In this document: piece after piece, positions 1 to 15,253 of the stretch
How the letters are laid out: each line of letters opens with the position of its first letter
How positions within the stretch are numbered: the stretch's first letter is position 1
Origin: Bacillota bacterium
Lineage (GTDB): Bacteria > Bacillota_A > Clostridia > Lachnospirales > WQUN01
Assembly (NCBI GenBank): GCA_009786175.1
Contig: WQTQ01000182.1
Span: 1-15,253, forward strand
Length of the DNA stretch: 15,253 nt
Direction of reading: 5' to 3'
Translations under genes and position numbers: made by a program
The notes under the pieces: model-generated
The model's database searches: none
The model's input: only the letters and a program-made list of their open reading frames with translations
Told to the model about the DNA's origin: nothing

Positions 1-825
1 TGTGCCGCTGCCTATATCAACAAAATCATTTACTGCATTAAGTGCCATAAACCCCGGGATAGACATGTCGCGGCTGCTTGTCATACGCATAAAGTCGCCC
101 AGACTCCATATATCGTCTCTTCCAAGGTCAAGGCCTGCGGCCAATACATCTGTATAAATGTCTATCATTTGGCTGACGGTAATTGCTCCGTACTGCATAA
201 AGCGGTTAATAAACTCCTGCGGCAGCCTGCTGTTAATGCCAATATACTGAAAGCCGAACCCCAAGGGGAAGAAGTACAGCTCACCGTTTACGGTTAGGGC
301 TTGCAAGGCTTCCTCGTAAAAATCGTGCCGGTTGAAAGTGCTGCATATGTTTATCAGTTCATGAATTTCTGTCAAATAGCCATCCCGCGCAAAGTCCCAC
401 ATAGGGAAGAGCGGGTCTGCAAAAATAAGATCGAAACCCTCACCTGCGGCGAACATGCTTTGTAGCCTGTATGCCCAGTAATCTGCTTCGGTTTCCGGGT
501 TGTAAGTGGTAATTTCCAGTTCAAACCGGCGATCGTATTCCATTAGACGAGCCGCCTGCTGCAAAATTGGACGGAAATGCCCCGGCGCAAGAACTGTAAG
601 CCTGCCGCCCGGACGTTGTGGTGTTACAGGGGAAGGGTCTGCGGTGTCCGGTTGCTGTGGTGGTGCTTCGTTGTTTTGTACGGTGCCGGGGGTTAGCTCT
701 GCCTCCAGCCTTTCAAGAAAGTCTGCCGGGGTTTCCCTTTTCGGCGGGGTGCTTCTGCCACAGGCGGACAAAATTAGTAAAACGCACAACGCAAGTGTTA
801 CACCGTATGATATTTTACGTTTCAT
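1..825 (-). CDS. Extracellular solute-binding lipoprotein, ABC sugar transporter (3' end outside window)
   Basis: This is the first 275 codons of a family 1 type solute-binding protein; the C-terminal part lies beyond base 1. The N-terminus has a basic start, a hydrophobic stretch and a lipobox L19-S-A-C22, so the mature protein should be lipid-anchored on the outer face of the membrane. Residues 24-74 are a Pro/Glu/Gln-rich linker, followed by a first lobe starting near GGRLTVLAP (73-81) and a GFDLIFADPL stretch (130-139) typical of the sugar-binding fold. The start is fixed by a strong AGGAGGAG site (831-838), 5 bases from ATG. It follows the GH43 gene after a hairpin and a palindromic repeat, so it may begin another transcription unit. 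The permeases it serves are not visible. Ligand unknown; an oligosaccharide is inferred from context. The lobe sequence is divergent, so the family call rests on architecture. Confidence 0.8.
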   Translation of the reverse strand, partial: MKRKISYGVTLALCVLLILSACGRSTPPKRETPADFLERLEAELTPGTVQNNEAPPQQPDTADPSPVTPQRPGGRLTVLAPGHFRPILQQAARLMEYDRRFELEITTYNPETEADYWAYRLQSMFAAGEGFDLIFADPLFPMWDFARDGYLTEIHELINICSTFNRHDFYEEALQALTVNGELYFFPLGFGFQYIGINSRLPQEFINRFMQYGAITVSQMIDIYTDVLAAGLDLGRDDIWSLGDFMRMTSSRDMSIPGFMALNAVNDFVDIGSGT

Positions 826-1004: not shown

Positions 1005-2486
1005 CTACTGTACCAAAAACCAATCAAAATCCACATAGCCGCCGGTGCTTTCCGTGGCGTAGTTAAACAGTGCAAAGCGATATCCGGTAAAGTGCGCCAA
1101 TGTATACCGCATTTTTAGTGTGCCGCCAATTTTTTTCCACTTGCTGCCACACAGGCTGTAATAAAAGTTGGCTTCGTCTATGGCATCTGTAAAGTTGAAA
1201 TCAATTTTCAGACGCACCTGATCCTGTGTAAGGGGTACAACCTCCATTGTATCCGTTGATGTGGCCATAATTATAGATTTTTGGCCGTCTTCCATTTTCA
1301 CACCCACAAACCCATACAGCTCTGCAAGGGCAGCAAAGCCTGCCACGTCACCGTCTTTCATTTGGCCTGTGTCCAGTAAAACACTGCCGGAGCATGCAGG
1401 CCCAAATGTGCGCTGGGTAAGGGTGTTTCTTGCTTCCACCAAGCTTTGTATCACATGGGTTGTTGTAAGCCTTAGCCAGCCTTTACGCGCCGTAAGTGAC
1501 CAGCCCGTATTATCCGGGTTGTGGTTCCACTGCCACTGCAGCGGCAGCTTGTCGCCGTCAAAATCGTCGGACACAACTAACGGAGCTGTTAGGTGAGGGG
1601 CAGATGGGTATGGCATTTCTATGGGCACTTCGCCGTCTTCACCAAATATTGGCCAGCCGTCTTGCCAGCTTACAGGCACCAGCACAGGTATACGCCCTAC
1701 GGAACCATGATCCTGAAACAACATGGCATACCATTTTCCACATGGGGTGTCAACTATCCCGCCTTGGGCCACACCCGCATTTTGGAAGCCAAGGTTATCA
1801 TCCAACACAATTCTGCCCTCGTACTCACCATCTATTGCATTTGCCCGGTAACATATTTCTATGCGCCTTCTTGTGCCTGTGCGGGGCCACGCGATAATAA
1901 AAATATAATACTTGCCGTCCAGCTTATATATGTGGGCCCCTTCTGCCAAGGATTTACCCCCGGTAATGTCCGCGTGTTCAATTATTACTTTGTTTAGCCC
2001 ATTTGGTTTTATTGCCGTTGCGTCCGCGGTTAGCTCCACAAGCCTAATCGCCCCTGCCCCGTAAACCATGTATACCCTGCCGTCATCAAAAAGCAATGAC
2101 ATGTCATGGTAAATGCCTTCAATGTCATACCTGCGCCATGGCCCGTTTTCTATGTCTTCTGTTTGGAAAATGTAGGTTGTATTTGTATTGTAAGCCACAA
2201 AGCTAACATAAAAAGTACCGTTGTGGTACCGCAAACTGCTGGCCCAAGATCCCCTGCCGTAGTCATGCTTGCCGTTCCGCAGTGCCATATGGTCGATATC
2301 GGAAAGGGTGTCGTACACGTAATTTACAATCTCCCAGTTTACCAGGTCTTTAGACTTCATTACCGGGCACCCGGGGGTAAAATACATTGTGGTGCTTGTC
2401 ATATAGTAGGTATCCCCAACGCGGATAACAGACGGGTCCGGCACATCCGCGTAAATAAACGGATTGATAAATGTATCTGCAGCCAT
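1005..2486 (-). CDS. GH43 family beta-xylosidase / alpha-L-arabinofuranosidase, cytoplasmic
   Basis: This 493-residue glycoside hydrolase has a GH43 five-bladed propeller (about 1-300) and a C-terminal beta-sandwich (about 303-493) of the kind seen in GH43 xylosidases. The N-terminal block with PDPS fits the general base at D17. D128 in HDMSLLFDDG fits the pKa-modulating Asp, and E182 in LAEGAHIYK fits the general acid. No signal peptide is present, so it should act in the cytoplasm on imported oligosaccharides, releasing xylose or arabinose from xylan fragments; sequence alone does not separate the two activities. The ATG follows AGGAGTG (2492-2498), and the upstream GH95 stop lies inside that site, so translation is probably coupled. 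It is the last gene of the GH10-GH95-GH43 set, followed by a hairpin at 975-1001. Family call is firm; substrate is inferred. Confidence 0.93.
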   Translation of the reverse strand: MAADTFINPFIYADVPDPSVIRVGDTYYMTSTTMYFTPGCPVMKSKDLVNWEIVNYVYDTLSDIDHMALRNGKHDYGRGSWASSLRYHNGTFYVSFVAYNTNTTYIFQTEDIENGPWRRYDIEGIYHDMSLLFDDGRVYMVYGAGAIRLVELTADATAIKPNGLNKVIIEHADITGGKSLAEGAHIYKLDGKYYIFIIAWPRTGTRRRIEICYRANAIDGEYEGRIVLDDNLGFQNAGVAQGGIVDTPCGKWYAMLFQDHGSVGRIPVLVPVSWQDGWPIFGEDGEVPIEMPYPSAPHLTAPLVVSDDFDGDKLPLQWQWNHNPDNTGWSLTARKGWLRLTTTHVIQSLVEARNTLTQRTFGPACSGSVLLDTGQMKDGDVAGFAALAELYGFVGVKMEDGQKSIIMATSTDTMEVVPLTQDQVRLKIDFNFTDAIDEANFYYSLCGSKWKKIGGTLKMRYTLAHFTGYRFALFNYATESTGGYVDFDWFLVQ

Positions 2487-2496
2487 TTTTTCACTC

Positions 2497-4719
2497 CTAA
2501 AATTTAAGAATCACGCTTTCGCCTTTAGCCAGGTTAATCTGTTTCTGCTGCCCGCCAAAAACAATTATGCCGGTATAGTCGGCTTTAGCGGTAATGTTCG
2601 CGGTTAACAAAATGCCGCATTTCCAAGTCAAATCTATAACTAAACCGCCTTTGGCACACAAGCCCTTAAACGACCCGTTTTGCCATTCTTCCGGCAACGC
2701 TTTTAATAAGTATACATGGTTTTGACTACTTTGTACAAACATATGGGCGATTGCCGCTGTCGCGCCAAAATTCCCGTCTATTTGAAATGGCGGATGGTCG
2801 TCAAACAAGTTTGGCAATGTTGAGTGGCGCAGCAACTCGTTTAAATGGAAGTACGTCTCTTTGCCGTCCCCAAGCCGGGCGTAAAAATTAATTATCCATG
2901 CCCTGCTCCACCCTGTATGGCCTCCCCCTTGGGAAAGGCGTAACTCCAGTGTTTTTCTTGCGGCCTGGGCCAAGTCCGGTGTGGTTTCCGGGCTTATGCC
3001 GTTGCCGGGGAACAAAGCGAACAAATGGGAAATATGCCTGTGGCCAGGTTCGGCCTCTACTTTTTCTTCAAGCCATTCCATTATGCCGCCGTTTTGGCCA
3101 ATTTTAATAGGCGGCAGTTTTGCCCGCATTTCCGCTGCTTTGGCCGCAAGTTCCCGGTCGCAGTCAAGTACTTTGCAGGCCTGTTCAAAGGCATCAAACA
3201 GCTCAACAAGTATTTGCGAGTCCATAGCGCAGCCTTCTGTAAGCCATGCGTGCTTCCCGTCCGGCAGCACATAAGTGTTTTCCGGCGAAATTGTCGGCGA
3301 CACTACCAGCTCGCCATTTTGGTTTTCTATAAGAAAATCTTCAAAAAACAGACAAGCGTCTTTTATAAGGTAAAAATGCTCTTCCAGGAATTTTTTGTCC
3401 AAGGTGTATTCATAATGTTCCCATATGTGCAGGCAAAGCCACGCGGCACCCATCACCCAGTAGGTAGAGCCAATCCATGTATCCTGGGGCGCGGTGTCAC
3501 CCCATAAGTCCGTATTATGATGAGCAACAAAGCCTTTTGCGCCGTACATTTTACTGGCTGTTGCTACCCCGTTAGGGTGCATACGTTTTATATGCTCGAA
3601 CAGCGGTCGGTGACACTCCTGCAAATTACATATTTCCGCGGGCCAGTAGTTCATTTGCGCGTTAATGTTAATTGTGTACTTGCTGTCCCAGGCGGGCAAG
3701 AAGTCCTGGCACCAGATACCCTGCAGGTTAGCAGGTAACGAACCCGGGCGGCTGCAAGACATAAGCAGGTAGCGGCCATACCTAAAGTACAAGGCGATAA
3801 GCCCCAAATCGGTGCCGCCTTCTTTAACAAGGGCCAGCCGTTCATCTGTGGGCAAATCGCTTTCACTTGTAGCCAAGTCAAATGACACGCGGCTTTCTAT
3901 AGCTTTGTAATGCTCTATATGCGCATTGCGGACGCTGTTGAAGTCCTTATGACTAACGGCAGTTAATGTTTTTACACAACTATATGCCGAGTTTTGTTGG
4001 CGGAAACTTGTAGCCGCGGTTACATACAAAACAACTTCCCGGGCGTTCTTGCAAACAATATACTCGCCAACAGTAGATATTTCACCGCGCGCAGCATGGG
4101 CAGACGTCATACAGCAAAATGATATGCCGTTTGTACCGCCGTTAACGCCGTCCACGTAAATTATATTATCGCCTGCCGCGCCCGAGCTCTCGCACAGCCT
4201 GTTGCGTACCAGCCGCGCGTCAAAGGATATGCCTGCCGGGTTGTTTGTAGACATTTTTATAGCGATAACATCATCTTGTACAGACGCAAAAACCTCCCGC
4301 CTATAACTGTAACCGTTTGCCGTAAACTCTGTTACGGCCAAGCCCTCGTCAAGTAATAAACAACGGGTATAATCCTGTACTCCGCCAATGTCTTTATATT
4401 GAATATGCAAATCTGCCAGCGCTTGGTATACACGCTGAAACTCCGGGGTTGCAGTTAACGCGTAACGGGACAGTTCTTCCGCTTCTTTTATTTTGCCCTC
4501 ACGCAAAAGTGAACGAATCCGCTGAAGATTTTTTACGGCATCCGGGTTATTGCGGTTGCGAAACCCGCCGGACCAGCAAGAGTCTTCATTTAGCTGTATT
4601 CGTTCATGATGTGTTCCGCCAAATATCATTGCCCCAAGCCTGCCGTTACCTACAGGCAGAGCTTCTGTCCACCTGTAGGTATTCGCGGGCTTTTTATACC
4701 ATAATTTATTTTCTGCCAT
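2497..4719 (-). CDS. GH95 family alpha-L-fucosidase / alpha-L-galactosidase, cytoplasmic
   Basis: This 740-residue protein matches the GH95 plan: an N-terminal beta-sandwich starting with LPVGNGRLGAMIFGG (21-35) and LNEDSCWSGG (43-52), an (alpha/alpha)6 barrel from about 290 to 670, and a short C-terminal beta region. Family-typical motifs include TININAQMNYWP (349-360), HHNTDLWGD (400-408), SPTISPEN (474-481), HRHISHLFALFPG (560-572), GGGHTGWSRAW (598-608) and QIDGNFGA (646-653). By analogy with characterised members, N351/N353 and D648 would form the base system; the acid is probably a Glu in 480-495, which I cannot assign. GH95 enzymes are inverting and remove alpha-1,2-L-fucose, or L-galactose in some xylan-linked members. 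No signal peptide. The ATG follows AGGAG (4726-4730), which overlaps the GH10 stop codon. Length is normal and no catalytic motif appears broken. Confidence 0.93.
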   Translation of the reverse strand: MAENKLWYKKPANTYRWTEALPVGNGRLGAMIFGGTHHERIQLNEDSCWSGGFRNRNNPDAVKNLQRIRSLLREGKIKEAEELSRYALTATPEFQRVYQALADLHIQYKDIGGVQDYTRCLLLDEGLAVTEFTANGYSYRREVFASVQDDVIAIKMSTNNPAGISFDARLVRNRLCESSGAAGDNIIYVDGVNGGTNGISFCCMTSAHAARGEISTVGEYIVCKNAREVVLYVTAATSFRQQNSAYSCVKTLTAVSHKDFNSVRNAHIEHYKAIESRVSFDLATSESDLPTDERLALVKEGGTDLGLIALYFRYGRYLLMSCSRPGSLPANLQGIWCQDFLPAWDSKYTININAQMNYWPAEICNLQECHRPLFEHIKRMHPNGVATASKMYGAKGFVAHHNTDLWGDTAPQDTWIGSTYWVMGAAWLCLHIWEHYEYTLDKKFLEEHFYLIKDACLFFEDFLIENQNGELVVSPTISPENTYVLPDGKHAWLTEGCAMDSQILVELFDAFEQACKVLDCDRELAAKAAEMRAKLPPIKIGQNGGIMEWLEEKVEAEPGHRHISHLFALFPGNGISPETTPDLAQAARKTLELRLSQGGGHTGWSRAWIINFYARLGDGKETYFHLNELLRHSTLPNLFDDHPPFQIDGNFGATAAIAHMFVQSSQNHVYLLKALPEEWQNGSFKGLCAKGGLVIDLTWKCGILLTANITAKADYTGIIVFGGQQKQINLAKGESVILKF

Positions 4720-4728
4720 ATCCGGCTC

Positions 4729-5805
4729 CTATTCTGCCGTAGCAACCACAGCGTAAAACGCTTCCTTGGGCTGCAAATCTTTATCAAACAGTACAGGAGA
4801 GCCCCAACGGCGCCAGCTATGGCCGTCATGGCGGGCCCACATTGTTACGCGCTCGATATGGCTTGCATATTCCAAGTACATTTTGAAAAGCTCTGTATAC
4901 ATTTCCGCCTGGCGTTTAGATTGCTCCGGTGTTAGCGGGTTGGCGGGTTCTTCATGGCTGCCGAATGTAATGTCCAACTCTGTAACAGAAATTTTTGCCC
5001 CTGTTTTGGCAAAACGCTCTAAGCTTTCCCGTACATGGGCAAGGTTTGTTTTTTGGTTGCAGTGGGCCTGCATACCAATACCTTCTATAAGCAAACGGCC
5101 ATCGTATTCCGGGTGATTGCGCCACTGCTGGTTAATTTCCTCTACCATTTGGGCAATCGCCTCGCGTTTTGTAGGAAACTCTTCGTTGTAATCGTTGTAA
5201 TACAATGTGGCCGCAGGGTCGTATTTGCGGGCAAAATAATAGGCGTCAAATACATAGTCCGCGCCGCTTTCGCCCTTCTCTGGGTCTGCGCCGTTTGCAT
5301 AAGCCAAGTACCATGGGGAAACCGCACGGGGGTTTTCGGACATACCACGCAAATGGTCGCGCCAGTTACCTGAAAACTCGCCACCGTCACGGAAGGCTTC
5401 GTTTATTACATCCCAGGAAAGAATACGGCCGCTGTACCTGCCGCCATAGGCTTTAATGAACGCTTCCATGTTTGCCTTTGCTTCCGTCCTTGTTTTGGGG
5501 CTGCCGTCTTCATTCTTATTAAGCCAAGGTGCAGATTGCCCATGCCAAACAAAGGTGTGGCCAATCATTTTAATACCATTTTCGTTTGCCCATTCCACCA
5601 TTTTGTCTACGGCCTCAAAATCATACTCGCCGGGGGCCGGTGAAACATAAACAGGTTTCATGGCGTTCTCCGGTGTTAAAGCATTAAAATGATGCTTAAA
5701 CATTTCCAGGGTTTCGGGGTTTTTCCAATCGTACGGGGATAAAATGTTGCCAAACAAAAAGTGCTTCTCAAAGGTTTTTTGCAATGATGGTAATGACAAG
5801 TCCAT
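4729..5805 (-). CDS. GH10 endo-1,4-beta-xylanase, intracellular type
   Basis: This is a single-domain GH10 (beta/alpha)8 enzyme of 358 residues. The substrate-binding block is NALTPENAMKP (41-51) and GHTFVWHGQSAPWL (82-95). The acid/base is E136 in WDVINEA and the nucleophile is E276 in SVTELD; H248 in GMQAHC and W323/W331 near the C-terminus fit the active-site wall. No signal peptide, binding module or anchor is present, so it should cut imported xylo-oligosaccharides in the cytoplasm, as do known intracellular GH10 enzymes. I start it at 5805 because AAGGAGGA (5812-5819) sits 6 bases upstream. An in-frame ATG at 5890-5892 would add 29 basic residues coded partly by the repeat and is unlikely. 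It begins the hydrolase set and is followed without a gap by GH95. Confidence 0.94.
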   Translation of the reverse strand: MDLSLPSLQKTFEKHFLFGNILSPYDWKNPETLEMFKHHFNALTPENAMKPVYVSPAPGEYDFEAVDKMVEWANENGIKMIGHTFVWHGQSAPWLNKNEDGSPKTRTEAKANMEAFIKAYGGRYSGRILSWDVINEAFRDGGEFSGNWRDHLRGMSENPRAVSPWYLAYANGADPEKGESGADYVFDAYYFARKYDPAATLYYNDYNEEFPTKREAIAQMVEEINQQWRNHPEYDGRLLIEGIGMQAHCNQKTNLAHVRESLERFAKTGAKISVTELDITFGSHEEPANPLTPEQSKRQAEMYTELFKMYLEYASHIERVTMWARHDGHSWRRWGSPVLFDKDLQPKEAFYAVVATAE

Positions 5806-5811
5806 GGTAAA

Positions 5812-5819
5812 TCCTCCTT
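5812..5819 (-). promoter_or_regulatory. Strong ribosome binding site deciding the GH10 start
   Basis: AAGGAGGA is a near-perfect Shine-Dalgarno sequence with a 6-base spacer to the ATG at 5803-5805. It fixes the start of the xylanase against the longer in-frame opening at 5892. Confidence 0.85.
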
Positions 5820-5827
5820 TTTTTTGT

Positions 5828-5846
5828 CCCCTGCGTGTGCGCAAGG
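5828..5846 (-). other. Small leader hairpin before GH10
   Basis: CCCTGCG (5828-5834) pairs with CGCAAGGG (5839-5846) with one bulged base and a 4-base loop. It lies just upstream of the GH10 ribosome binding site on the minus strand and is followed there by an A-rich run, so it is not a terminator in that direction. It may be an mRNA leader element or chance. Confidence 0.35.
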
Positions 5847-5876
5847 GTATGTATCGCATTTGGATTTTTGTATAAA

Positions 5877-5976
5877 GGGGCCGTCTTGTCAAGCATGAAA
5901 AGGATAACTTCCTATAGCGAGTATCAATGATTATCGCATTAGGGAATTATCGTTTTCGAGCTAACGAGACAGCCCC
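5877..5976 (-). repeat. Palindromic structured repeat, copy 2 (core 5883-5970)
   Basis: This is the second copy of the repeat at 853-966, in the same orientation, between the binding-protein gene (stop at 6010) and GH10. Its ends are GGGGC (5877-5881) and GCCCC (5972-5976). The next stem is GTCTTGTCAAGC (5883-5894) with GCTAACGAGAC (5960-5970), imperfect. The main 18-bp stem is 5897-5914 with 5939-5956, and an apical stem GCGA/TCGC (5917-5920 with 5933-5936) encloses ATCA/TGAT. On the minus strand it ends in GCCCC followed by TTTAT, which resembles a weak terminator. One pair that is A-T in copy 1 is G-C here, so pairing is kept despite sequence change. Ends starting GGGGCTGTCTC resemble transposon termini, suggesting a MITE, but I see no clear target duplication. 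Confidence 0.8.
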
Positions 5977-6009: not shown

Positions 6010-7476
6010 CTAGAAACCTAATATTCTGTTAGCTTCCGCAACTGCGTCATTTACAAGTGGTTGAGCTTCTTCTACGATAACAGCAGCGTCAGAACCTTCA
6101 TGCCACATTCTCCAAGAGAATACTTCGCCTTCGTGGAAACCTGGGCCAGGAAGAACAGCGTGCCACATTGGCTCCCAACGTGTACCGTCGCGGCCAAACA
6201 ATGCCATTGTTTCGTCTACGTTACGAGGTGTAGAGTGTACAAGATATGCAGCGGCTTTCCAAGCATCTGGATCGTCAAAGCCCGGTAGCGGACGCTGCCA
6301 CATCAGATACGCGAACATAATGTCATCAACTTCTTGTGCGTTAAATGTAGATGGGATAACATTAAAGTTTGTGTTACCTTGGAAACGGTGTGTGGTGCCT
6401 GATGGGCCAACCGGGAATGTTACAAAGCCGAATGGGTCGTCAGAGTAATTTGCAAGGGTACCGGCCAACCCGGATCCACCATTAAACCATGCAACTTCAC
6501 CATTTCTAAATGCATAGTCAAACCAGTTCCATGGTGTATCAGGCGGTTGAGGCATCATAACATTTTCAACATGTCTTAAGTTGTTTATAAATGTAAGAGT
6601 CTCTAGGAATTCAGGTGTGTTTGTTTGGTTGTGGAATCTTCCTTGGGCGTCGCGATAAATATACCTGGCATTGTTAGTAGGCAAAGCCCACATTAGCAAG
6701 AATGACGAGAATCCTGCAAAACCCCATGTGTCATTGATACCGGTGTTGTCAATGTCGCGGGTTGTTGCATGCAACAATTCTAACCATGCATCCCATGTCC
6801 ACTCGCCGCGCAATTGCAGGTCAAATGGTAAATATGGGTCAACTCCTGCTTCTTCAAGAAGTCTCATGTTAAACCATAAACCAGGGCCTGTTTGGATATC
6901 TCTTGACCAGCCATGAGGCACACCGTTGGCGTCGCGTGCCATGTTAACGGTATTTTGGTTCCATGTGTACTCGGATGTGTCTGTAAAGTCTACTGTTGTA
7001 ATTGGCGCAAGTAAGCCTTGTGTCATTAGAGGGCCAAACCAGTAGTGAGAAAGGATAAAGATGTCTGCTGCAGGGTCGCCTGCCAAGATAGACATGGTTG
7101 CAATTTCTTGGATATAGCCCCAGCCACCCAAGTTTTCTTCACGCATTGTAAAGTTGTATCTATCCATTACATAGATACGGTCATCCAAACGCGCTTCTCC
7201 TTGCAATGTTGTAGGTTCAGCGGTGTCTACACACCAGTTAGCCCACCAGTTACCAATAACAATTTCTCTGCCGCCAAGGTCACGTGGCGGTGCAGAAGGC
7301 TCTTCTTGAGCTGCAGGTTCCGGCTCTGGTGCCGGTGCTACAGGGGTTTCAGCGGCAGGTTGGTTATTTGCTTGTGTACCCCCGTCATTTGTGTCATTTC
7401 CGCCGCCGCATGCAGCAAGTGCAAATAAAGCCACAAGCAGCACTGGAAGCAACAAAACTTTCATTTTGACTTTCAT
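6010..7476 (-). CDS. Extracellular solute-binding lipoprotein, ABC sugar transporter
   Basis: This complete 488-residue lipoprotein binds the sugar ligand for the permease pair encoded immediately upstream. The signal peptide (1-22) ends in lipobox L20-A-A-C23, then a Gly/Asn/Pro/Glu-rich flexible linker (24-66) and a two-lobed binding domain from about REIVIGNWWANW (70-81). Many aromatic residues (W77, W78, W81, W147, W190, W228, W317, W330) suit stacking against sugar rings. Residues 135-143 with PAADIFILS and 330-336 with WFNGGSG are typical of family 1 binding proteins. I start at 7476 because AGAGGAG (7484-7490) lies 7 bases upstream; an in-frame extension to 7572 would add 32 residues and overlap the permease stop. 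The ligand is probably a xylan-derived oligosaccharide, inferred from the hydrolases that follow. Confidence 0.92.
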   Translation of the reverse strand: MKVKMKVLLLPVLLVALFALAACGGGNDTNDGGTQANNQPAAETPVAPAPEPEPAAQEEPSAPPRDLGGREIVIGNWWANWCVDTAEPTTLQGEARLDDRIYVMDRYNFTMREENLGGWGYIQEIATMSILAGDPAADIFILSHYWFGPLMTQGLLAPITTVDFTDTSEYTWNQNTVNMARDANGVPHGWSRDIQTGPGLWFNMRLLEEAGVDPYLPFDLQLRGEWTWDAWLELLHATTRDIDNTGINDTWGFAGFSSFLLMWALPTNNARYIYRDAQGRFHNQTNTPEFLETLTFINNLRHVENVMMPQPPDTPWNWFDYAFRNGEVAWFNGGSGLAGTLANYSDDPFGFVTFPVGPSGTTHRFQGNTNFNVIPSTFNAQEVDDIMFAYLMWQRPLPGFDDPDAWKAAAYLVHSTPRNVDETMALFGRDGTRWEPMWHAVLPGPGFHEGEVFSWRMWHEGSDAAVIVEEAQPLVNDAVAEANRILGF

Positions 7477-7483
7477 TTTTTTT

Positions 7484-7490
7484 CTCCTCT
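7484..7490 (-). promoter_or_regulatory. Ribosome binding site deciding the start of the binding protein
   Basis: AGAGGAG with a 7-base A-rich spacer to the ATG at 7474-7476. It rules out the upstream in-frame start at 7572 and leaves a clean lipoprotein signal peptide. Confidence 0.8.
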
Positions 7491-7509
7491 CGAAAAAAAT
7501 AATTTTTAT

Positions 7510-7536
7510 TATAACCGGCGGAAATGCCGGACTATA
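7510..7536 (-). other. Leader hairpin between permease and binding-protein genes
   Basis: TATA-a-CCGGC (7510-7519) pairs with GCCGG-ac-TATA (7526-7536) around a 6-base loop. On the minus strand the right arm is followed by an A/T-rich run containing TTATTTTTTT. It could partly terminate transcription, or protect the 5' end of a processed binding-protein mRNA, a common way of raising binding-protein levels over permease levels. Function is inferred. Confidence 0.5.
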
Positions 7537-7546
7537 ACCATGATAA

Positions 7547-8560
7547 TTACATTTTAATACCCGATTGTCCAATACTTTCTACAAACAGCCTTTGTGTAAA
7601 CAGGTAAAGCACAATTAACGGCGCAACTGCCATTAACAGCCCGGTGGCAATCATAACTTGGATAGCAGCGTTACTAACACCTTCACCGTATATTGCCATA
7701 TGGAACTCGCGGTAAGCTTCCGCAAGGCCGCTTAACTGAACAGAGAATACACCCTGCGACCGTAGGAACAGCGTTGAATAAAACCCGTCTGTCCACTGCC
7801 ATACAAAGGCGAACAAGAAGCAGGATGCCAAAATTGGTTTAGCGTCAAGCAGCATAATTTGTACAAATGTACGTAGTTTGCCGCAACCGTCTACATATGC
7901 CGCCTCTTCCAGTTCTTTTGGCACAGTACGGAAGTATTGACGAAGCATGAATACATACAGACCGCTTCTAAGGCCCATTCCCGTGGCAACAAGAATCAGG
8001 TAACCTGTTAATGTGTCCAATAGATTAAGCGGAGAGCCGCGAAATAAGGTAAACAAACCAAATACATCAAAGAAACGGAAATTTAAAAATAACGGAGCCA
8101 TTATGGTTTGCGGCGGTACAATTATTGTTAGAATAACGCACATAAACCAAAACCCTTTTAGCGGAAATTGGAACCTTGCAAAACCGTACGCTGTTAATGT
8201 ACAGGCAGTAATTTGCAAAATAGCTACCAAAAACGCAATACCGGCAGACCTAAACAGTGCCCCCCAATAGCTCATTATACTTGCTGCCATTCTATAATTG
8301 CCCAACGAAAAATTACGTGGGATAGATATAACAGAAGCATCGTACAAGTCTGCCCTAGACATTATACTTAAGGAAAATTGGTTAAGCAAAGGCTGAAGTA
8401 TTAAGAAGCAAAGGCCAAACAGCAATACAACCTTAAAAATTGTGTTAATTGTATTTGTCAAAGCCCTCTTTACAAAATATCCTCTGCTTTCGCGGTTTCG
8501 TTTAACATACTCACCTATACGGCTGGGTTTTCGCGTATTAACTTTTTCAACTTTAGTCAT
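7547..8560 (-). CDS. Carbohydrate ABC transporter permease (MalG-like)
   Basis: This 337-residue integral membrane protein is the second permease of the inner pair. It has an unusually long basic cytoplasmic N-terminus (about 1-36), then about six membrane segments starting with VVLLFGLCFLIL (44-55) and including 106-128, 138-158, 184-205, 244-262 and 302-324. The cytoplasmic EAA loop that docks the ATPase is EEAAYVDGCGKLRTFVQIML (218-237) followed by DAKPI; D224-G225 and P242 are present, while the usual Ala after DG is Cys226. It ends SGIKM, similar to the C-terminal GIKE/GIKG tails of MalG-type permeases. Its ATG overlaps the upstream permease stop by 8 bases, and it is followed by the binding protein after a hairpin. 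No ATPase is encoded nearby. Confidence 0.93.
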   Translation of the reverse strand: MTKVEKVNTRKPSRIGEYVKRNRESRGYFVKRALTNTINTIFKVVLLFGLCFLILQPLLNQFSLSIMSRADLYDASVISIPRNFSLGNYRMAASIMSYWGALFRSAGIAFLVAILQITACTLTAYGFARFQFPLKGFWFMCVILTIIVPPQTIMAPLFLNFRFFDVFGLFTLFRGSPLNLLDTLTGYLILVATGMGLRSGLYVFMLRQYFRTVPKELEEAAYVDGCGKLRTFVQIMLLDAKPILASCFLFAFVWQWTDGFYSTLFLRSQGVFSVQLSGLAEAYREFHMAIYGEGVSNAAIQVMIATGLLMAVAPLIVLYLFTQRLFVESIGQSGIKM

Positions 8561-9500
8561 AGTAATACACCACCCTCGATATTAATCCACATACAATGGC
8601 AAGTATTAATGCCACAACCAAGAAATACACCCAAACCATTGCGGATGCCAAGCCGTATTCCATACCCTGCAGCATGTTTTGCCTGGCAAGGTTCATTACG
8701 CGGTTGTCTGTCCTAACCAAGAAGTCTACTACGGTATACACAACTACAACCAAAATCATTGGGGAAAGCATTGGGAATGTAATTTTCCAAAAATTCTCCC
8801 ATGCGGTTGCGCCTTCAATACTACTGGCCTCATATACACTTTTAGGTATCGTCTGCAAGCCGGATAAAAATATTAAGATCTGTATGCCCGACGCCATGGC
8901 AATTGTATGAATCTGGTTGATAATCAGGAAAATATACTCCATAAAGTCATTAACAGCCGCGGCACCTGTCGCACTCATTAATATGTCTTCAAGCACACCT
9001 GTTATGTTTGCCCTTAAGGCGTTACTTTCCCTTATATGGTCTGCTAACTGATTTAACATAGAGTTGCTTGTTTCCAAGTCTACTAATACACCACTTGCAA
9101 GTATTACAGGCAGGAAGAACACAGCGCGTACAAAGGCCCTTCCCGGGAAGGCATTGTTTAGCAATACCGCTATAAAAAAACTAAATATCAGTACCGCAGG
9201 AATCATTACGCCCATTCTGGTTACCTCTTCTGTTACATAGCGGGTATACGCAGGGTGTACTAAAAGGGCACGGTTTAGGTTTACAAGCCTTGTAAACTCC
9301 AAGTCGAAACGGTTGTATTGTATATTTAAGTGTACCTGAGAAAATACCATACGTATAGACTGTATCATCGGCCTTGCCATAAAGGCCAGAAAACCAATAA
9401 TAAATGGTGAAATAAACAGGTATCCGGCAATTGCGCCCTTTGTCGCAAGTGTTATTTTGTTGCGCTTTCTCGCGCTGTTTTCAGCAACCACGATATTCAT
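8553..9500 (-). CDS. Carbohydrate ABC transporter permease (MalF/UgpA-like) with periplasm-side insert
   Basis: This 315-residue permease is the first of the inner pair. Membrane segments appear at about 24-44, 97-117, 124-142, 187-214, 246-264 and 286-309. The EAA loop is YEASSIEGATAWENFWKITF (223-242) plus PMLSP, with Glu instead of Asp before the Gly. Between the third and fourth segments lies a hydrophilic insert (about 143-186) including ETSNSMLNQLADHIRESN, longer than in standard permeases of this class and predicted to face outward; it might contact the lipoproteins of the cluster. The start has a good AAGGAAGG site (9502-9509), and the upstream DUF5696 gene ends only 19 bases before. 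It should pair with the 7547-8560 permease and the 6010-7476 binding protein. Confidence 0.92.
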   Translation of the reverse strand: MNIVVAENSARKRNKITLATKGAIAGYLFISPFIIGFLAFMARPMIQSIRMVFSQVHLNIQYNRFDLEFTRLVNLNRALLVHPAYTRYVTEEVTRMGVMIPAVLIFSFFIAVLLNNAFPGRAFVRAVFFLPVILASGVLVDLETSNSMLNQLADHIRESNALRANITGVLEDILMSATGAAAVNDFMEYIFLIINQIHTIAMASGIQILIFLSGLQTIPKSVYEASSIEGATAWENFWKITFPMLSPMILVVVVYTVVDFLVRTDNRVMNLARQNMLQGMEYGLASAMVWVYFLVVALILAIVCGLISRVVYYYD

Positions 9501-9519: not shown

Positions 9520-12078
9520 CTAACGCACTACCGTATAACGCATTGCGGGAACAATTACACCATCTTGTTTAAAATCAAAATTGGACAAATTTACATATAC
9601 TCTTGTGCCGTCTTCATACACCGTAACGGTAACATCATCCGATAAAATCATGTGGTTAACTATTAATTGGTTGTACAGATGTGAGAAGTATCTGTTATGG
9701 TTTTGATACAGCATATTGGCTTCGTTAACCCAGCGGTCATACTCGTTTGCAAAGAAGCGTCTGTACCTGGCTACACCGTGGAGTTCGCTGGTGGGCTGTG
9801 TTTTAAAGCTAAAGAATAAGGACGAACCGGATTCCACAGAACGCAGTAAATAGTACGAATAGTCTTCGGACAGGTTAAGTGGCCGCCCGGCAAAATGCAC
9901 CAGCCCGTGCAAAGCTATCTGGTAAAACGGTACCGATACATCTGTGATGGCAAAATTTTGGTCCGAAAGTGGCATACCGGTAATTACATTGGCGAAAGGC
10001 ATCGCATAAGCAAAGCCGTAGTTTAGCCAAATACCGGTACCACCGGCTTTTAAGTCTGCCAGTAAATTGCTTCGCATATGCATAGACGATTCGCGGCTTA
10101 CATAACGTCTATCGTTAAAGTCCCCGGCCAAGGCACTGCCCATTGTACGGAATGAAATATTATTTACACCCAAATTGGATGCTTGATCCACAAAATTATT
10201 TACCAAATCCATTGTAAACCCGGGTGTTGCCAGTACTACAGGGTCTGCAAGCACACTCGCGCTTCCCAATTGTCCAAAGTGCACATGACTGTGCCCGTTG
10301 TGTTGAACCCTGTCACGGGTTACATAGCGGGCAGCGTCACTATTTAAACTAAAACCGTTAAATAATGAGTTGTCGCGCATTAGGACAAAATCGCCCTCTA
10401 AATAAAATTCGTAGCCAAACCTGTTTGCGGCATCTAACATATTATTGAAAGACCGCCTGTTACCCAGCCGTGAGACAAGTCTTACCCTGGTTGGTACGGA
10501 ATGGTCTATGGAATTATTATGGGCACCCAGCATACGGATGTGCAAGTTTTGCCACCCCATAGAATGGAAATCTTCCATCATACCCGCAGCTTCATCGAAA
10601 GTTGTTAGGGCAAACGGACGGGAAACCGGCATACCCAACAGTGGCTGAACCATTTCTATCGCGCCAAGGATTTCTACCATAGCGTTTACAGGCTCTGTTA
10701 CACGGTTGTTTAGCCATGGATAACGGGCTTGTAAAAACTCCCGGTAGGCCACTGCCATACCAACATAGCCCGGTGTGTCTGTAAACACATAGCGTACAAC
10801 AATAGATTCGCCTTCCGGCAAACGCCGTTCATGAATTTGGATACTTTCCGCGGTACGCCCCGTTACATTGGCAAGCCCGCCGTGTATTAACCGGAAGTTT
10901 GCCGATACACTACTGTATGGGGTGCGCATACCGCCTGTTTCTGCCCATACTTGCGCGTATGAGGCACCGCTTTCGATTATTGCGGCAAAAGTGCCGCCGT
11001 TCCTGTATATACCAAATACCGGATATGCCGCCCGGTTATCATGAATAATTGCTTCGCGGAAAACAGCCTCGTCCCAGCCAAAAATATTACTGGAGAAAAC
11101 TTGCTGGCTATGGCGCCCGTTGTTGAAAAACAGTAAAGACCCGGAGCCATCCGGCAAAAAGAGATAACCTTCGTCATCGTTATGGCCTGCGCCAAAAAAC
11201 GGCATTAATGTAAACCTGGTGGGAAGAAACTCTACACGGTAATTGATTTCATCAAAAGGAACTGTAACTACCATGGCATTTTGGTCAAGTTCAAAACGCA
11301 TTGTAACGTTGAAAACCGGAATATCTAAATACGTATCCAAACCAAAGTAGTTCATGTCATATTCCCATTCGTAAATGGTATAGCCGACACTTTGCAGCAT
11401 ATCTTGTAAACGCTCAAGCATAAAATCTTGTATCGCGCTGCGCAGCACAAAAATATTTTGATACTCTAACGTAGGGAACCTCTCCAGCAATTCCGAACGG
11501 TTATCTGCGGGGCGCAAACGGTTTATATCAAAAAGCCTGTAGGCTTCTAACATTTGACGCCTTTGTGCGGGCTCTAACTGGTCTATGAAGTAATAAAAGC
11601 GTTCTTCGTATATGGCATCCGGTATAAAGAAAATCTTCGGTATGTTACCAACAGTAAAATATACTTCCAAGCCGCCGTCAACCAATGCATGCTCGAAACT
11701 GTTATTTTGCACCGATTGCCTGTAGGTAGTAAATGTTTGCCCTGCACCAAGCCGGTTCTCAAACTCAAGCAAAAACAGACTTTGCATATGAGAACGTGCT
11801 ACAGGAGCCGCGTTTACTTCATTTCTTGCGTTGTATGGCGTAGAACGCCATTCTTTACCGCTGCCGCGCTCTGTAACAACAATTTCTGCGGTGTCGGTTA
11901 AAAATTCCAGGATTAGATATTCATTTTCAATTGATACAACCGGGGGTATGTCGTCTGCAAGGCCGTAACCAAAAATGATAATCTCGCCGCCATACCTTTC
12001 CTCCATTGTGCAAGCTGCCGCAATAAGCACAAGGCAGGTTAAAAAAGACAACATAAAAATTTTCTTACATGACTTCAT
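9520..12078 (-). CDS. DUF5696-type large lipoprotein, possible glycosidase-like fold
   Basis: This 852-residue protein has a lipoprotein signal peptide with lipobox I-A-A-A-C (lipidated C23), so it should sit on the outer membrane face. The N-terminal half (about 40-460) looks beta-rich, with SGKEWRSTP (73-81) and LPDGSGSLL (308-316). The region from about 465 to 700 alternates strands and helices in a way that suggests a TIM barrel, with acidic residues at putative strand ends (E561 and D563 in LEGDFVLM; D653 in LAGDFND). The C-terminus (about 810-852) is another beta unit. I recognise it as resembling DUF5696 proteins that travel with sugar ABC operons; catalytic activity is a hypothesis. 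I chose ATG 12078 because GAGGTGA (12087-12093) is 8 bases upstream; GTG at 12090 and ATGs at 12087 and 12084 are alternatives. The gene follows YIP1 directly. Confidence 0.85.
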   Translation of the reverse strand: MKSCKKIFMLSFLTCLVLIAAACTMEERYGGEIIIFGYGLADDIPPVVSIENEYLILEFLTDTAEIVVTERGSGKEWRSTPYNARNEVNAAPVARSHMQSLFLLEFENRLGAGQTFTTYRQSVQNNSFEHALVDGGLEVYFTVGNIPKIFFIPDAIYEERFYYFIDQLEPAQRRQMLEAYRLFDINRLRPADNRSELLERFPTLEYQNIFVLRSAIQDFMLERLQDMLQSVGYTIYEWEYDMNYFGLDTYLDIPVFNVTMRFELDQNAMVVTVPFDEINYRVEFLPTRFTLMPFFGAGHNDDEGYLFLPDGSGSLLFFNNGRHSQQVFSSNIFGWDEAVFREAIIHDNRAAYPVFGIYRNGGTFAAIIESGASYAQVWAETGGMRTPYSSVSANFRLIHGGLANVTGRTAESIQIHERRLPEGESIVVRYVFTDTPGYVGMAVAYREFLQARYPWLNNRVTEPVNAMVEILGAIEMVQPLLGMPVSRPFALTTFDEAAGMMEDFHSMGWQNLHIRMLGAHNNSIDHSVPTRVRLVSRLGNRRSFNNMLDAANRFGYEFYLEGDFVLMRDNSLFNGFSLNSDAARYVTRDRVQHNGHSHVHFGQLGSASVLADPVVLATPGFTMDLVNNFVDQASNLGVNNISFRTMGSALAGDFNDRRYVSRESSMHMRSNLLADLKAGGTGIWLNYGFAYAMPFANVITGMPLSDQNFAITDVSVPFYQIALHGLVHFAGRPLNLSEDYSYYLLRSVESGSSLFFSFKTQPTSELHGVARYRRFFANEYDRWVNEANMLYQNHNRYFSHLYNQLIVNHMILSDDVTVTVYEDGTRVYVNLSNFDFKQDGVIVPAMRYTVVR

Positions 12079-12086
12079 GAACATCA

Positions 12087-12722
12087 TCACCTCATCCTAA
12101 ACAGAATTTCTTGCCCAAGAGATATAAAATACGCAACCCCGTCACTTACAACCGCGAAAAACATAACAAAAACGAAAATAATTACGCCAATAGCCACAAC
12201 GGTAAAAAGCGATGACAATATTGTTTTACTCATTGTGTAGTCATGAATTTCCATCATTGCGCAAAGAAGTAGAAGTACAAACCAAAACATACCGACACTG
12301 GTCATTAACCAGTATAACGCGCCTTCGTCAAAAGTTATTATGTGGCTTACAGGTACCAGCGCGGCATTGATAATAATCATAGGTACCAGCGCGTAGGCAG
12401 TACCCATGTATATGTCCTTAAGCCGCCCTTTGCCATCCATAAGTGTAGTCAAACTCCAGTTGGCAATAGTCCATAAAAAAAGTGGCAATAAAACTTGAGC
12501 AATTACTATAAAAATGTTAAAAGACTCTAGGTTCACAAGCCTAAATTGGAAGTTGGTAGCCGTATAACGCAGTATCTCAACTATAACAGCCAATACTACA
12601 ATTGTGTGAGCGGCCGCCATACTGCCCTTGCGTTCGTGAACTAAGTCCCAAAAACCCACAAGAGGCCTACGCATTGTATAAAGGCTGTAGCGCAAGCTTT
12701 GCACGTATTCCGTTCGCGTCAT
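12087..12722 (-). CDS. YIP1 family membrane protein
   Basis: This 211-residue protein has a soluble N-terminus with a P20-containing segment (RRPLVGFWDL, 18-27) followed by five predicted membrane helices at about 38-55, 69-88, 107-127, 137-157 and 168-192. That pattern fits bacterial YIP1-domain proteins; no enzymatic motif is visible. Its ATG overlaps the stop of the propeller gene in an ATGA (12719-12722), so the two are translationally coupled, and its TGA stop lies inside the ribosome binding site of the DUF5696 gene. This tight packing argues that the three products are made together and may form a membrane complex, with YIP1 as the integral part. The molecular role of bacterial YIP1 proteins in sugar operons is not known to me. 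Confidence 0.8.
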   Translation of the reverse strand: MTRTEYVQSLRYSLYTMRRPLVGFWDLVHERKGSMAAAHTIVVLAVIVEILRYTATNFQFRLVNLESFNIFIVIAQVLLPLFLWTIANWSLTTLMDGKGRLKDIYMGTAYALVPMIIINAALVPVSHIITFDEGALYWLMTSVGMFWFVLLLLCAMMEIHDYTMSKTILSSLFTVVAIGVIIFVFVMFFAVVSDGVAYFISLGQEILFRMR

Positions 12723-14197
12723 GACTCCAACACTTCCCTTCTGATGCGGAGGACAAATTTAACCACAGGCGGAACAACAATTAAAGTACCTATAACTATT
12801 GCAAATATCCAAAAGTGGTCTTCCATCCATTGACGGCGATAGAAACCAAATGCACGCCCGTATCCTCTAAAGTCGTCGTTTAATTGGAAATAACGCATTG
12901 CATCTCTGTAATAGCCTTGACGCAACAGCGACCGGGCAATACCCGCATAGGCCATACCAAAATTACCGTTCATTCTTAGCACCTGCTGCCAGCTTTCCGC
13001 GGACGCGTCATACAAACCCTGGCGATAATAAAGTATAGCTTGGTTTATAAGAGTACCGTATTCTGTTAAGTCGAAACGTGTTACGGCGGCGGTTTGAGCG
13101 TCAAGAGCATACAAGGCAAAACCCATACTGTCTACCGCAGAAGGCAGAATAAACATACCCTCACGGTTACCCCTGCCCCCAAAAACGAACAACAAGTCCC
13201 CTTGAAAATCGTAGGCAAACAGACGCCCACGGGTACGGTCAAAGGCAACAAACGTCTCGTTGGGGAGGGTTGTTATGTCTATAAACCTGGAAGGGCCGGT
13301 TATACCGGCAGCAGTCCCGTATGTCAAATCCCCAACAATGGAGAATCTGCCATTTCTAATTAATATATCGTTACCCATGGCATTTAAACGCCTAACAGGG
13401 TCTACTTGCAAATTGGAATTTGTTACAAAAATAAATCCTTCTTGGTCTATAAATACATTGTTGTACTCTGTTGGTGTGTATAAGGGCATGCGGGCCCTTT
13501 GCTCTTGCGTGGCAATCATGCGCCAAAATTGGTCTATCGGGGAAATTGTAACAGGGCTTGCCCCCATGTAGCCCGCAAAATTTCCGTAGCGGTCAAATTC
13601 CATAAGGCCACGGTTTACGTGAGTCGCTTGTACAAATAACCTGCCCGAATGGTCTACACCCAGTTTATTGGGTATAAAATGCAGCCCAGGGTCTAAAAGA
13701 CTATTTTCCGGGTGAGTTATTTCTCTTATAACATTCCATTCCGAGTCTACATGTAAAATACGGTGATTTTCTGTATCGGCAATCCATATGTCGCCCCACG
13801 CCGCGACAAATATACCGTGGGGGCTGTTAAATGTGCTGGGCGAACCATCCAGCATTACATGATCAACCACTTGATAAACTACGTGAGTACTGTCTTCCGT
13901 ATATTCCAAAACTACAATTCTGTTATTTCCTGTGTCGACAACATAAATAAAATTGTCTATTACAAACAAATCCTGTGGGTTGTTAAAATCCCCAATACCC
14001 AAGTGCTCGCCAAGTATAAATGCGGTAACTCTGTAAACATCCGGCGACGGGTTGGGCAAGCCTCTAAAGCAATAAGTGTAGGTAAAATTTGTAGGAGATG
14101 CAGCAAAAATGGGCATTGCCATACCAAAAGTAAAAACGAAAACAATCACAACTGCCACAAAACCGCTAATGGCTTTTTTATGTTTTAGGCACTTCAT
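12719..14197 (-). CDS. Secreted NHL-type beta-propeller with TPR and C-terminal membrane anchor
   Basis: This 492-residue protein starts with a signal peptide (hydrophobic 9-30, likely cleavage near A32/A33). Residues 60-375 carry NHL-like propeller repeats, for example NPQDLFVIDNFIYVVDTGNN (73-92) and SPHGIFVAAWGDIWIADTEN (125-144), with further blades near 177-202, 245-260 and 305-335. Residues 383-440 look like one or two TPR-type helical hairpins (YYRQGLYDASAESW and RQGYYRDAMRYF). A single membrane helix (463-483) ends in a basic tail RIRRE, so the propeller and TPR parts should face outside. The start follows AGGGGGA (14203-14209), which overlaps the upstream permease stop. A scaffold or ligand-binding role is inferred; propellers of this type can also be enzymes, but I see no clear active site. 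Confidence 0.85.
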   Translation of the reverse strand: MKCLKHKKAISGFVAVVIVFVFTFGMAMPIFAASPTNFTYTYCFRGLPNPSPDVYRVTAFILGEHLGIGDFNNPQDLFVIDNFIYVVDTGNNRIVVLEYTEDSTHVVYQVVDHVMLDGSPSTFNSPHGIFVAAWGDIWIADTENHRILHVDSEWNVIREITHPENSLLDPGLHFIPNKLGVDHSGRLFVQATHVNRGLMEFDRYGNFAGYMGASPVTISPIDQFWRMIATQEQRARMPLYTPTEYNNVFIDQEGFIFVTNSNLQVDPVRRLNAMGNDILIRNGRFSIVGDLTYGTAAGITGPSRFIDITTLPNETFVAFDRTRGRLFAYDFQGDLLFVFGGRGNREGMFILPSAVDSMGFALYALDAQTAAVTRFDLTEYGTLINQAILYYRQGLYDASAESWQQVLRMNGNFGMAYAGIARSLLRQGYYRDAMRYFQLNDDFRGYGRAFGFYRRQWMEDHFWIFAIVIGTLIVVPPVVKFVLRIRREVLES

Positions 14198-14207
14198 AAC
14201 CGTCCCC

Positions 14208-15110
14208 CTACTCTTTTATGCCGGAACTGGCCATTGTTCTTAAAACGTTACTTTGGGCAATAATAAACAATGTAATTGGCACAATCATCATAAACAAAGT
14301 AACCGCCGCACCTACACCGGCACGGGCAATCCCGCCGCCCATAATTTGGCCCAGGGCAAATGGTAATGTTTTTAGCTGCTCTGTGTAAATTAAGGTACCG
14401 GCTGTGGTGTGCCACAGGGCCTGTACACAGAAAATCATACCTGTAAGCCAGGCCGGTTTGACCAGGGGCATAATAATGCGGGAGTAAATCATCCACTCGC
14501 TTGCGCCGTCAATTTTAGCGGACTCTACCAAGGAATCCGGTACGGTGTCCATAAACTGTTTCATAAGGAAAAACCCTAACGGCATTGCAAAAGCCGGTAT
14601 AATAACCGCAAAGTATGTGTCTATCCAGCCGAGCCGTGACAAAATTAAGAAGTTGGGTATGCCTGTTACATGACCGGAGAACATTAGTGTTACAATAACA
14701 ACACTAAAAAACAACTTGCTGCCCGGGAAAACATATTTGGAAATTGCATAAGCACCCATAGACGCAAGGGTCAAATGTCCAACAGTACCGACTACTGTGA
14801 TAAACACCGTATTAAAAATGTAGCGTGAAAATGTTACCCACGAACGGGACATAATAATAAACAAATCCTGAAAGTTGGTAAGTGTCGGATTAATTACGAA
14901 AAGCCTTGGGGGGAAAAGGAATATTTCGTTTAAAGGCTTAAACGCGTTGTTAATGGCAAATACAAGAGGGAAGGCAAAAAAGAAACCAAAAATACAAAGT
15001 ATGCATATGATAAATATGTCGCCGCCCCGGGAACGGTTTGGCTTGCGTATAGCCCTTGCGGACCTTATAACTCTTGTCTTTTGACTGTTATTTTTTTTAC
15101 TTTTTACCAT
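14208..15110 (-). CDS. Carbohydrate ABC transporter permease (MalG/LplC/YtcP-like)
   Basis: This 300-residue permease has a basic N-terminal tail (1-30) and six predicted membrane helices at about 33-53, 99-122, 135-153, 164-184, 219-237 and 267-286. Its EAA loop is ESAKIDGASEWMIYSRIIMP (196-215) with the canonical D201-G202-A203 core. It ends SSGIKE, the usual tail of MalG-type permeases. I start it at 15110 because GGGGGAG (15117-15123) lies 6 bases upstream; the alternative ATG at 15125 overlaps the previous stop codon (TAATG) and would add five residues. It partners the permease whose end is seen at 15125-15253. The binding protein for this pair is not seen between them and may lie to the right of the window. 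Confidence 0.93.
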   Translation of the reverse strand: MVKSKKNNSQKTRVIRSARAIRKPNRSRGGDIFIICILCIFGFFFAFPLVFAINNAFKPLNEIFLFPPRLFVINPTLTNFQDLFIIMSRSWVTFSRYIFNTVFITVVGTVGHLTLASMGAYAISKYVFPGSKLFFSVVIVTLMFSGHVTGIPNFLILSRLGWIDTYFAVIIPAFAMPLGFFLMKQFMDTVPDSLVESAKIDGASEWMIYSRIIMPLVKPAWLTGMIFCVQALWHTTAGTLIYTEQLKTLPFALGQIMGGGIARAGVGAAVTLFMMIVPITLFIIAQSNVLRTMASSGIKE

Positions 15111-15116
15111 TATAGT

Positions 15117-15123
15117 CTCCCCC
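15117..15123 (-). promoter_or_regulatory. Ribosome binding site favouring the 15110 start
   Basis: GGGGGAG lies 6 bases before the ATG at 15108-15110. The other in-frame ATG (15123-15125) overlaps this site and has only a weak AGTAGG upstream, although its TAATG overlap with the preceding stop could allow re-initiation. Confidence 0.6.
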
Positions 15124-15124
15124 A

Positions 15125-15253
15125 TTATGTGCCTACTCTGCGCAGAAATGCTTGTACGCCCTTGTTGGTATTAATCATAATTAAGAACAACAACGTAGCA
15201 ATTGCGGAAGCATATCCCATTTCGAAGCGCATACCGCCATAGTCTGCCAGGTG
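15125..15253 (-). CDS. Carbohydrate ABC transporter permease (LplB/UgpA-like), C-terminal end only
   Basis: Only the last 42 codons and the TAA stop are in the window; the rest lies beyond base 15253. The tail contains FEMGYASAIAT (10-20 of the fragment), a hydrophobic segment LLFLIMI and the end FLRRVGT. This GYASAIA block followed by a final membrane helix and a basic end is characteristic of the last helix of MalF/LplB-type sugar permeases. The stop shares a base with an ATG of the following permease (TAATG), so the two are co-transcribed and probably coupled. The EAA loop is not visible, so the call rests on the C-terminal motif and on the neighbouring second permease. Confidence 0.85.
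   Translation of the reverse strand, partial: HLADYGGMRFEMGYASAIATLLFLIMINTNKGVQAFLRRVGT

Follow-up and report, generated by a model that had tools for sequence, protein, structure and literature searches.

Three adjacent genes in a 15,253-nucleotide stretch of DNA from a Bacillota bacterium (hereafter the window) encode an NHL beta-propeller protein with tetratricopeptide repeats (TPR), a YIP1-family membrane protein and a DUF5696 lipoprotein. Judged from gene order and genome surveys, these genes constitute an almost invariant set that accompanies the permeases of sugar ATP-binding cassette (ABC) importers in bacteria that live on plant fibre. We propose, with a probability of about 0.55, that one distinct lineage of ABC importers for oligosaccharides uses the trio as its accessory module; the NHL/TPR and YIP1 proteins would provide a docking platform and DUF5696 would bind glycans without hydrolysis of the GH129 type. 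An initial annotation of the window had described three tightly coupled genes inside a sugar importer operon and had suggested that their products form an extracytoplasmic complex; its observations were confirmed by the analysis reported here, and its interpretation is partly supported.

Open reading frames (ORFs) and domain matches identify the window as a single operon on the minus strand (Table 1). The trio is transcribed in the order NHL, YIP1, DUF5696, with 4-base overlaps at both the NHL/YIP1 and YIP1/DUF5696 junctions, and is flanked, as originally described, by permease genes: the tail of U1 and U2 on one side, D1 and D2 on the other. The first protein matches PF01436 (E 3.9e-11) and carries hydrophobic segments at residues 13-31 and 457-475, located with a hydropathy scan rather than a signal-peptide predictor, while its TPR matches, at about residues 383-438, lie under the Pfam cut-offs. 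The second matches PF04893 (E 1.3e-12; 48.4 bits against a curated cut-off of 28.6), and the five hydrophobic segments found by the same scan agree with the five helices first ascribed to it. The third matches PF18952 over residues 241-852 (E 4.4e-157; 524.7 bits against a curated cut-off of 25.6). Its single hydrophobic segment (residues 11-29) and Cys27, the lipoprotein position, invariant across the 29 rows of alignment A1, bear out its description as a lipoprotein of some 850 residues. One database protein is 96% identical to it. NCBIfam holds no family for the YIP1 or DUF5696 protein and matches the NHL protein only far under its cut-offs, and the YIP1 profile had no match in the PDB up to E 1.

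Gene order was compared across 109 loci gathered through DUF5696. This set comprises 68 loci from a contig scan with the 29-row DUF5696 alignment, 40 added neighbourhoods (34 of the 48 places over the cut-off and 6 further places) and the window. Titles among the 68 name Treponema and other spirochaetes, Defluviitaleaceae, Lachnospiraceae, Oscillospiraceae and others, and many of the isolate codes are presumably those of termite-gut and rumen metagenomes. An NHL gene was found at most four genes upstream of DUF5696 in 104/109 loci; in four where it is missing (L002, L034, L051 and L060) the contig ends near DUF5696. YIP1 was a separate gene at most three genes upstream of DUF5696 in 82/109 loci, and in a further 23/109 it was fused to NHL. 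The same trio order occurs in Bacillota and Spirochaetota. Counted by permease labels, exactly two permeases lie downstream in 100/109 loci and exactly two upstream in 82/109. In its full form the locus encodes a binding protein of 900-1070 residues, U1, U2, NHL/TPR, YIP1, DUF5696, D1 and D2, often followed by a solute-binding protein. The idea that the trio always sits with two permease pairs did not hold, as 13 loci with a fused NHL-YIP1 gene have no upstream permease (L102, L109-L112, L123, L126-L128, L132, L133, L135 and L136); a single downstream pair is present in 12 of them, and L135 is cut by a contig end. L106 and L107 instead carry the large binding protein, along with further permeases, after the D pair. 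In L120 and L124 the D permeases are followed by a run of five to six binding-protein-family ORFs (some of those in L120 are short or cut), as if several binding proteins served one importer.

Since the loci had been gathered through DUF5696, we also ran an NHL profile against these 299 Bacillota genomes, the same ones as surveyed for DUF5696. DUF5696 was over the cut-off in 26 of them, including the centre genome G004, known beforehand to have it. The NHL profile matched 28 genomes, namely the same 26 and, with partial matches, G251 (E 1e-56) and G019 (E 3e-21). Fisher's test gives p 2e-35 for this joint occurrence, a value that overstates the evidence because the genomes share ancestry. Thus the families are not found mostly apart, which had been named as the outcome that would speak against a common unit, and these counts together with gene order tie the trio as one unit to sugar ABC importers. 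The genome-wide counts cover NHL and DUF5696; YIP1 is tied to them through gene order only. In Spirochaetota, the same survey gave matches over the cut-off in 4/149 genomes including the centre G003, three full-length and one partial. By source name, among the best 120 of 644 matches, DUF5696 carriers include many Paenibacillus species, Gorillibacterium and Cohnella. Some genomes carry several copies, and G002, the genome of L001 (about 2.6 Mb), has eight DUF5696 matches.

Natural fusions show that NHL/TPR and YIP1 belong to one functional part: in the 23 loci they make up a single protein of 670-835 residues, and the YIP1 profile scores 78-226 bits on its C-terminal portion. An AlphaFold2 model of the L128 fusion (22 rows; mean pLDDT 83.1, pTM 0.72) contains strands, TPR-like helices and membrane helices, and its propeller groups in Foldseek with NHL domains such as that of TRIM71 (E 9e-15).

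The partner permeases were compared in a midpoint-rooted tree of 199 of the 345 permeases (342 from the loci and three from the window), which included 15 loci of class S: 12 short-form, the rearranged L106 and L107, and L122, which meets a contig end. Each position formed one clade: U1 (41/41; support 0.999), U2 (43/43; 0.978), D1 together with the loci lacking an upstream pair (57/57; 0.623) and D2 likewise (58/58; 0.279). When nine further permeases from the same loci were added, D1 and D2 took in none of them (support 1.0 and 0.209), U1 gained one and U2 four. These five come from the rearranged L013, L048, L106 and L107 and are closest to U sequences; the other four, at distances above 3 substitutions per site, make a small outgroup. 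Each position is thus its own lineage, and the D pair, whose clades include the loci without an upstream pair, is the constant partner of the trio.

Among the importer components of the window, three permeases match PF00528, one of them just under the cut-off, and the binding protein matches PF01547; we take the importer to be of the CUT1 type. The gene for the large binding protein lies beyond the window edge here. Where present, this protein has its solute-binding domain on the C-terminal side, and a PDB comparison of one such protein gave matches in that part only. Its two N-terminal domains are homologous to each other (hhalign 99.6%), gave only sub-threshold Pfam matches in the three proteins scanned, and may bind carbohydrate.

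The predicted model of the DUF5696 protein adopts a GH129/GH101-type glycosidase fold over residues 51-856, nearly its whole length. Although the single sequence had no PDB match up to E 10, its profile reached GH129-like chains at E 7e-5, and hhalign detects profile homology to GH129. An origin in the GH129/GH101 superfamily is likely. The catalytic residues of GH129 are absent from the window protein: at the place of the catalytic Asp (NagBb Asp435, DagB Asp486) it has R648-T649-M650, and in the column of the catalytic Glu (DagB Glu517) it has N690, where all 16 GH129-like rows carry Asp and Glu, respectively. The three DagB catalytic columns correspond to T649, N690 and T704. Filing DUF5696 as GH129 was rejected on these columns and on the absence of PF11308 (GH129) among the protein's matches at E up to 1. 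The GH129-like proteins P0121-P0135 bear PF11308 and PF18952 together in precomputed labels, which means that the DUF5696 model already extends to GH129 relatives. PF11308 was found in 2/100 Spirochaetota genomes; its 0 matches in 149 Bacillota genomes do not establish absence, since the controls were silent too. In L095-L098, ORFs of about 490-660 residues match the central part of the DUF5696 model (about 265-442) weakly and partially, and below-cut-off matches of this kind were seen in two control genomes, those of Thermotoga maritima and Lactococcus lactis.

Proteins encoded downstream were searched in a first set of 58 and a second set of 68, with matches at E up to 1e-10. Among the first 25 of 38 families, the first set contains at least 10 GH10, 7 GH130 and 3 GH3 matches, at least one each of GH67, glucuronate isomerase and GH5, and, outside glycan metabolism, at least 4 of aminotransferase IV and 2 each of DAC and YbbR. 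The second, among the first 25 of 71 families, contains at least 7 GH43, 4 each of GH42 and GH26, 2 each of GH31, GH3, GH5, alginate lyase and rRNA methyltransferases, and 1 each of GH10, rhamnogalacturonan lyase and pectate lyase. Since these enzymes span xylan, mannan, galactan, pectin and alginate, the module is not xylan-specific, and a role of the trio in xylan use only was rejected. In the window itself, GH10, GH95 and GH43 together presumably fit glucuronoarabinoxylan, and their lack of a hydrophobic N-terminal segment points to digestion after import.

From these data we infer docking, binding and hand-over as follows. NHL/TPR-YIP1 would lie in the membrane next to the D permeases and expose its propeller and TPR on the outer side as a platform for assembly and docking. 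The lipid-tethered DUF5696 barrel would bind long or branched oligosaccharides without hydrolysis of the GH129 type and, with one or two solute-binding proteins, would hand them to the permeases; the imported cargo would then be cut in the cytoplasm by co-encoded enzymes, which in the window are GH10, GH95 and GH43. The initial annotation had the trio holding or processing glycans. A glycosidase fold that lacks the GH129 catalytic residues favours holding and makes processing the less favoured half.

In a rival reading, DUF5696 would be an active surface glycosidase, lyase or transglycosidase that uses other catalytic residues and trims side chains before import, with NHL/TPR-YIP1 merely anchoring it. 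The near-complete glycosidase fold suits such an enzyme, as does the conservation of D657 (123/136 rows), R666 (134/136) and N739 (136/136), residues that could serve binding or other chemistry. Both GH129 catalytic columns are acidic in 10/136 DUF5696 rows, and some members could therefore be enzymes. Yet in the 96 rows of the window's own set the columns of T649, N690 and T704 are acidic in only 4, 1 and 0, and a linkage-specific hydrolase would not be expected beside enzymes for such different substrates; we regard an active enzyme as unlikely. Rather more improbable is a sensor or gate, in which NHL/TPR-YIP1 would sense, on the outside, DUF5696 or a binding protein in its loaded state and, on the inside, would regulate permeases or expression. 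An external propeller and TPR attached to a membrane domain of several helices would suit signalling, and YknW, discussed below, modulates an ABC complex, but Pfam matches of the trio include no kinase, receiver or transcription-factor domain.

Several observations weigh against the accessory module proposed here. In L011, which on the available DNA is a real exception, neither NHL nor YIP1 was detected beside DUF5696; L048 has NHL but no detected YIP1; and L004, L005 and L013 contain inserted genes. In L011 the expected upstream part of the operon (L011:3437-9410) holds a 1451-residue ORF and two small reversed ORFs instead. Together with the 10 acidic rows, the register at 648/649, uncertain by one residue, tempers the loss of catalytic residues. 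No ATPase was found among the window proteins scanned for domains, and ABC_tran matched one of 58 neighbour proteins. The physical complex, glycan binding and transport are predictions, and the YknW precedent is weakened in that YknW serves an exporter whose permease is of another type. The two exceptions, L011 and L048, could also be taken to mean that unrelated genes stand together by chance or through recent common ancestry of the sampled genomes, the loci being related and many coming from similar gut habitats. The co-occurrence counts in 299 genomes disfavour chance neighbours, as do the shared order in Bacillota and Spirochaetota and the NHL-YIP1 fusions, and we consider this explanation extremely improbable.

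Table 1. Features of the window.
Feature	Position	Strand	Basis
U1 permease 3' end, 42 codons and stop, cut by window edge	15125..15253	-	translation; resembles U1 C-termini of L001, L006
ABC permease, position U2	14208..15125	-	PF00528; U2 clade
NHL beta-propeller/TPR protein, 492 residues, N-terminal signal or anchor segment, C-terminal membrane segment	12719..14197	-	ORF; PF01436; hydropathy; alignment A2
YIP1-family membrane protein, 211 residues, five hydrophobic segments	12087..12722	-	ORF; PF04893; hydropathy; alignment A3
DUF5696 lipoprotein, 856 residues, GH129/GH101-type fold without GH129 catalytic residues	9520..12090	-	PF18952; model; fold matches; hhalign; columns
ABC permease, position D1	8553..9500	-	PF00528 E 2.7e-05, just under Pfam cut-off; D1 clade
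ABC permease, position D2	7547..8560	-	PF00528; D2 clade
Solute-binding lipoprotein of importer	6010..7572	-	PF01547 E 1.2e-12
GH10 xylanase	4729..5892	-	PF00331; hydropathy: no hydrophobic N-terminal segment
GH95 enzyme	2497..4719	-	PF22124 E 3.6e-171; PDB relatives; hydropathy: no hydrophobic N-terminal segment
GH43 enzyme with GH43_C2 domain	1005..2486	-	PF04616, PF17851; hydropathy: no hydrophobic N-terminal segment
Lipoprotein-type ORF, 275 residues, cut by window end; proline-rich linker past N terminus	1-825	-	sole label is a self-match

The window had no Rfam match at gathering scores and no tRNA, and promoter and terminator scans stayed close to the shuffled level.

The usual description of a sugar ABC importer has a single pair of permeases together with a binding protein and an ATPase. 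The present system shares with such binding-protein-dependent importers the BPD_transp_1 permeases and SBP_bac_1 binding proteins, but here as many as two pairs of permeases and two types of binding protein are arranged around a three-part accessory module that is obligate. DUF5696 resembles the GH129/GH101 enzymes NagBb, DagB/ZgGH129 and EngBF in fold and profile, yet differs from them in its catalytic columns and in being encoded inside an importer operon. SusCD-type loci also combine a repeated transport core with varied enzyme sets, and they have a surface glycan-holding lipoprotein, the role proposed here for DUF5696; import in the present loci is instead through ABC permeases, and no SusC- or SusD-like domain occurs among the window proteins scanned. 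The Yip1 family protein YknW of Bacillus is reported to modulate assembly of the YknXYZ complex and is thus, like YIP1 here, associated with an ABC transporter (PMC4887032). YknWXYZ is described there as an exporter that combines a MacB-like permease with a membrane fusion protein (PMC4887032), whereas the trio stands with sugar-importer permeases, NHL/TPR and DUF5696, and neither MacB-like permease nor membrane fusion domains occur among the window proteins scanned. In the searched literature, which omits most subscription journals, no paper naming DUF5696 was found, and nothing on PF18952, or on Yip1 with sugar transport, concerned the trio system; within these bounds the set is, as first supposed, poorly described. 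A word search of the main text of a paper on carbohydrate use by Paenibacillus JDR-2 found no Yip1, NHL, tetratricopeptide or propeller (PMC4765114).

The trio marks a widespread importer lineage with an obligate three-part accessory set, paired with enzymes for many glycans. More tentatively, the loci may represent an unnamed multi-part import machine for oligosaccharides in Bacillota and Spirochaetota, an ABC counterpart of SusCD. As many as two pairs of permeases, two types of binding protein and an NHL/TPR-YIP1 membrane scaffold would then act as a single assembly, with DUF5696, a dead glycosidase, as its capturing subunit. DUF5696 itself gains a fold and a likely GH129/GH101 origin, so that its activity becomes directly testable. 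If capture and docking are as proposed, annotations of DUF5696, YIP1 and NHL would become a marker for glycan-uptake loci, and the module would help to explain how Paenibacillus, Lachnospiraceae and similar bacteria of gut and soil take up large oligosaccharides.

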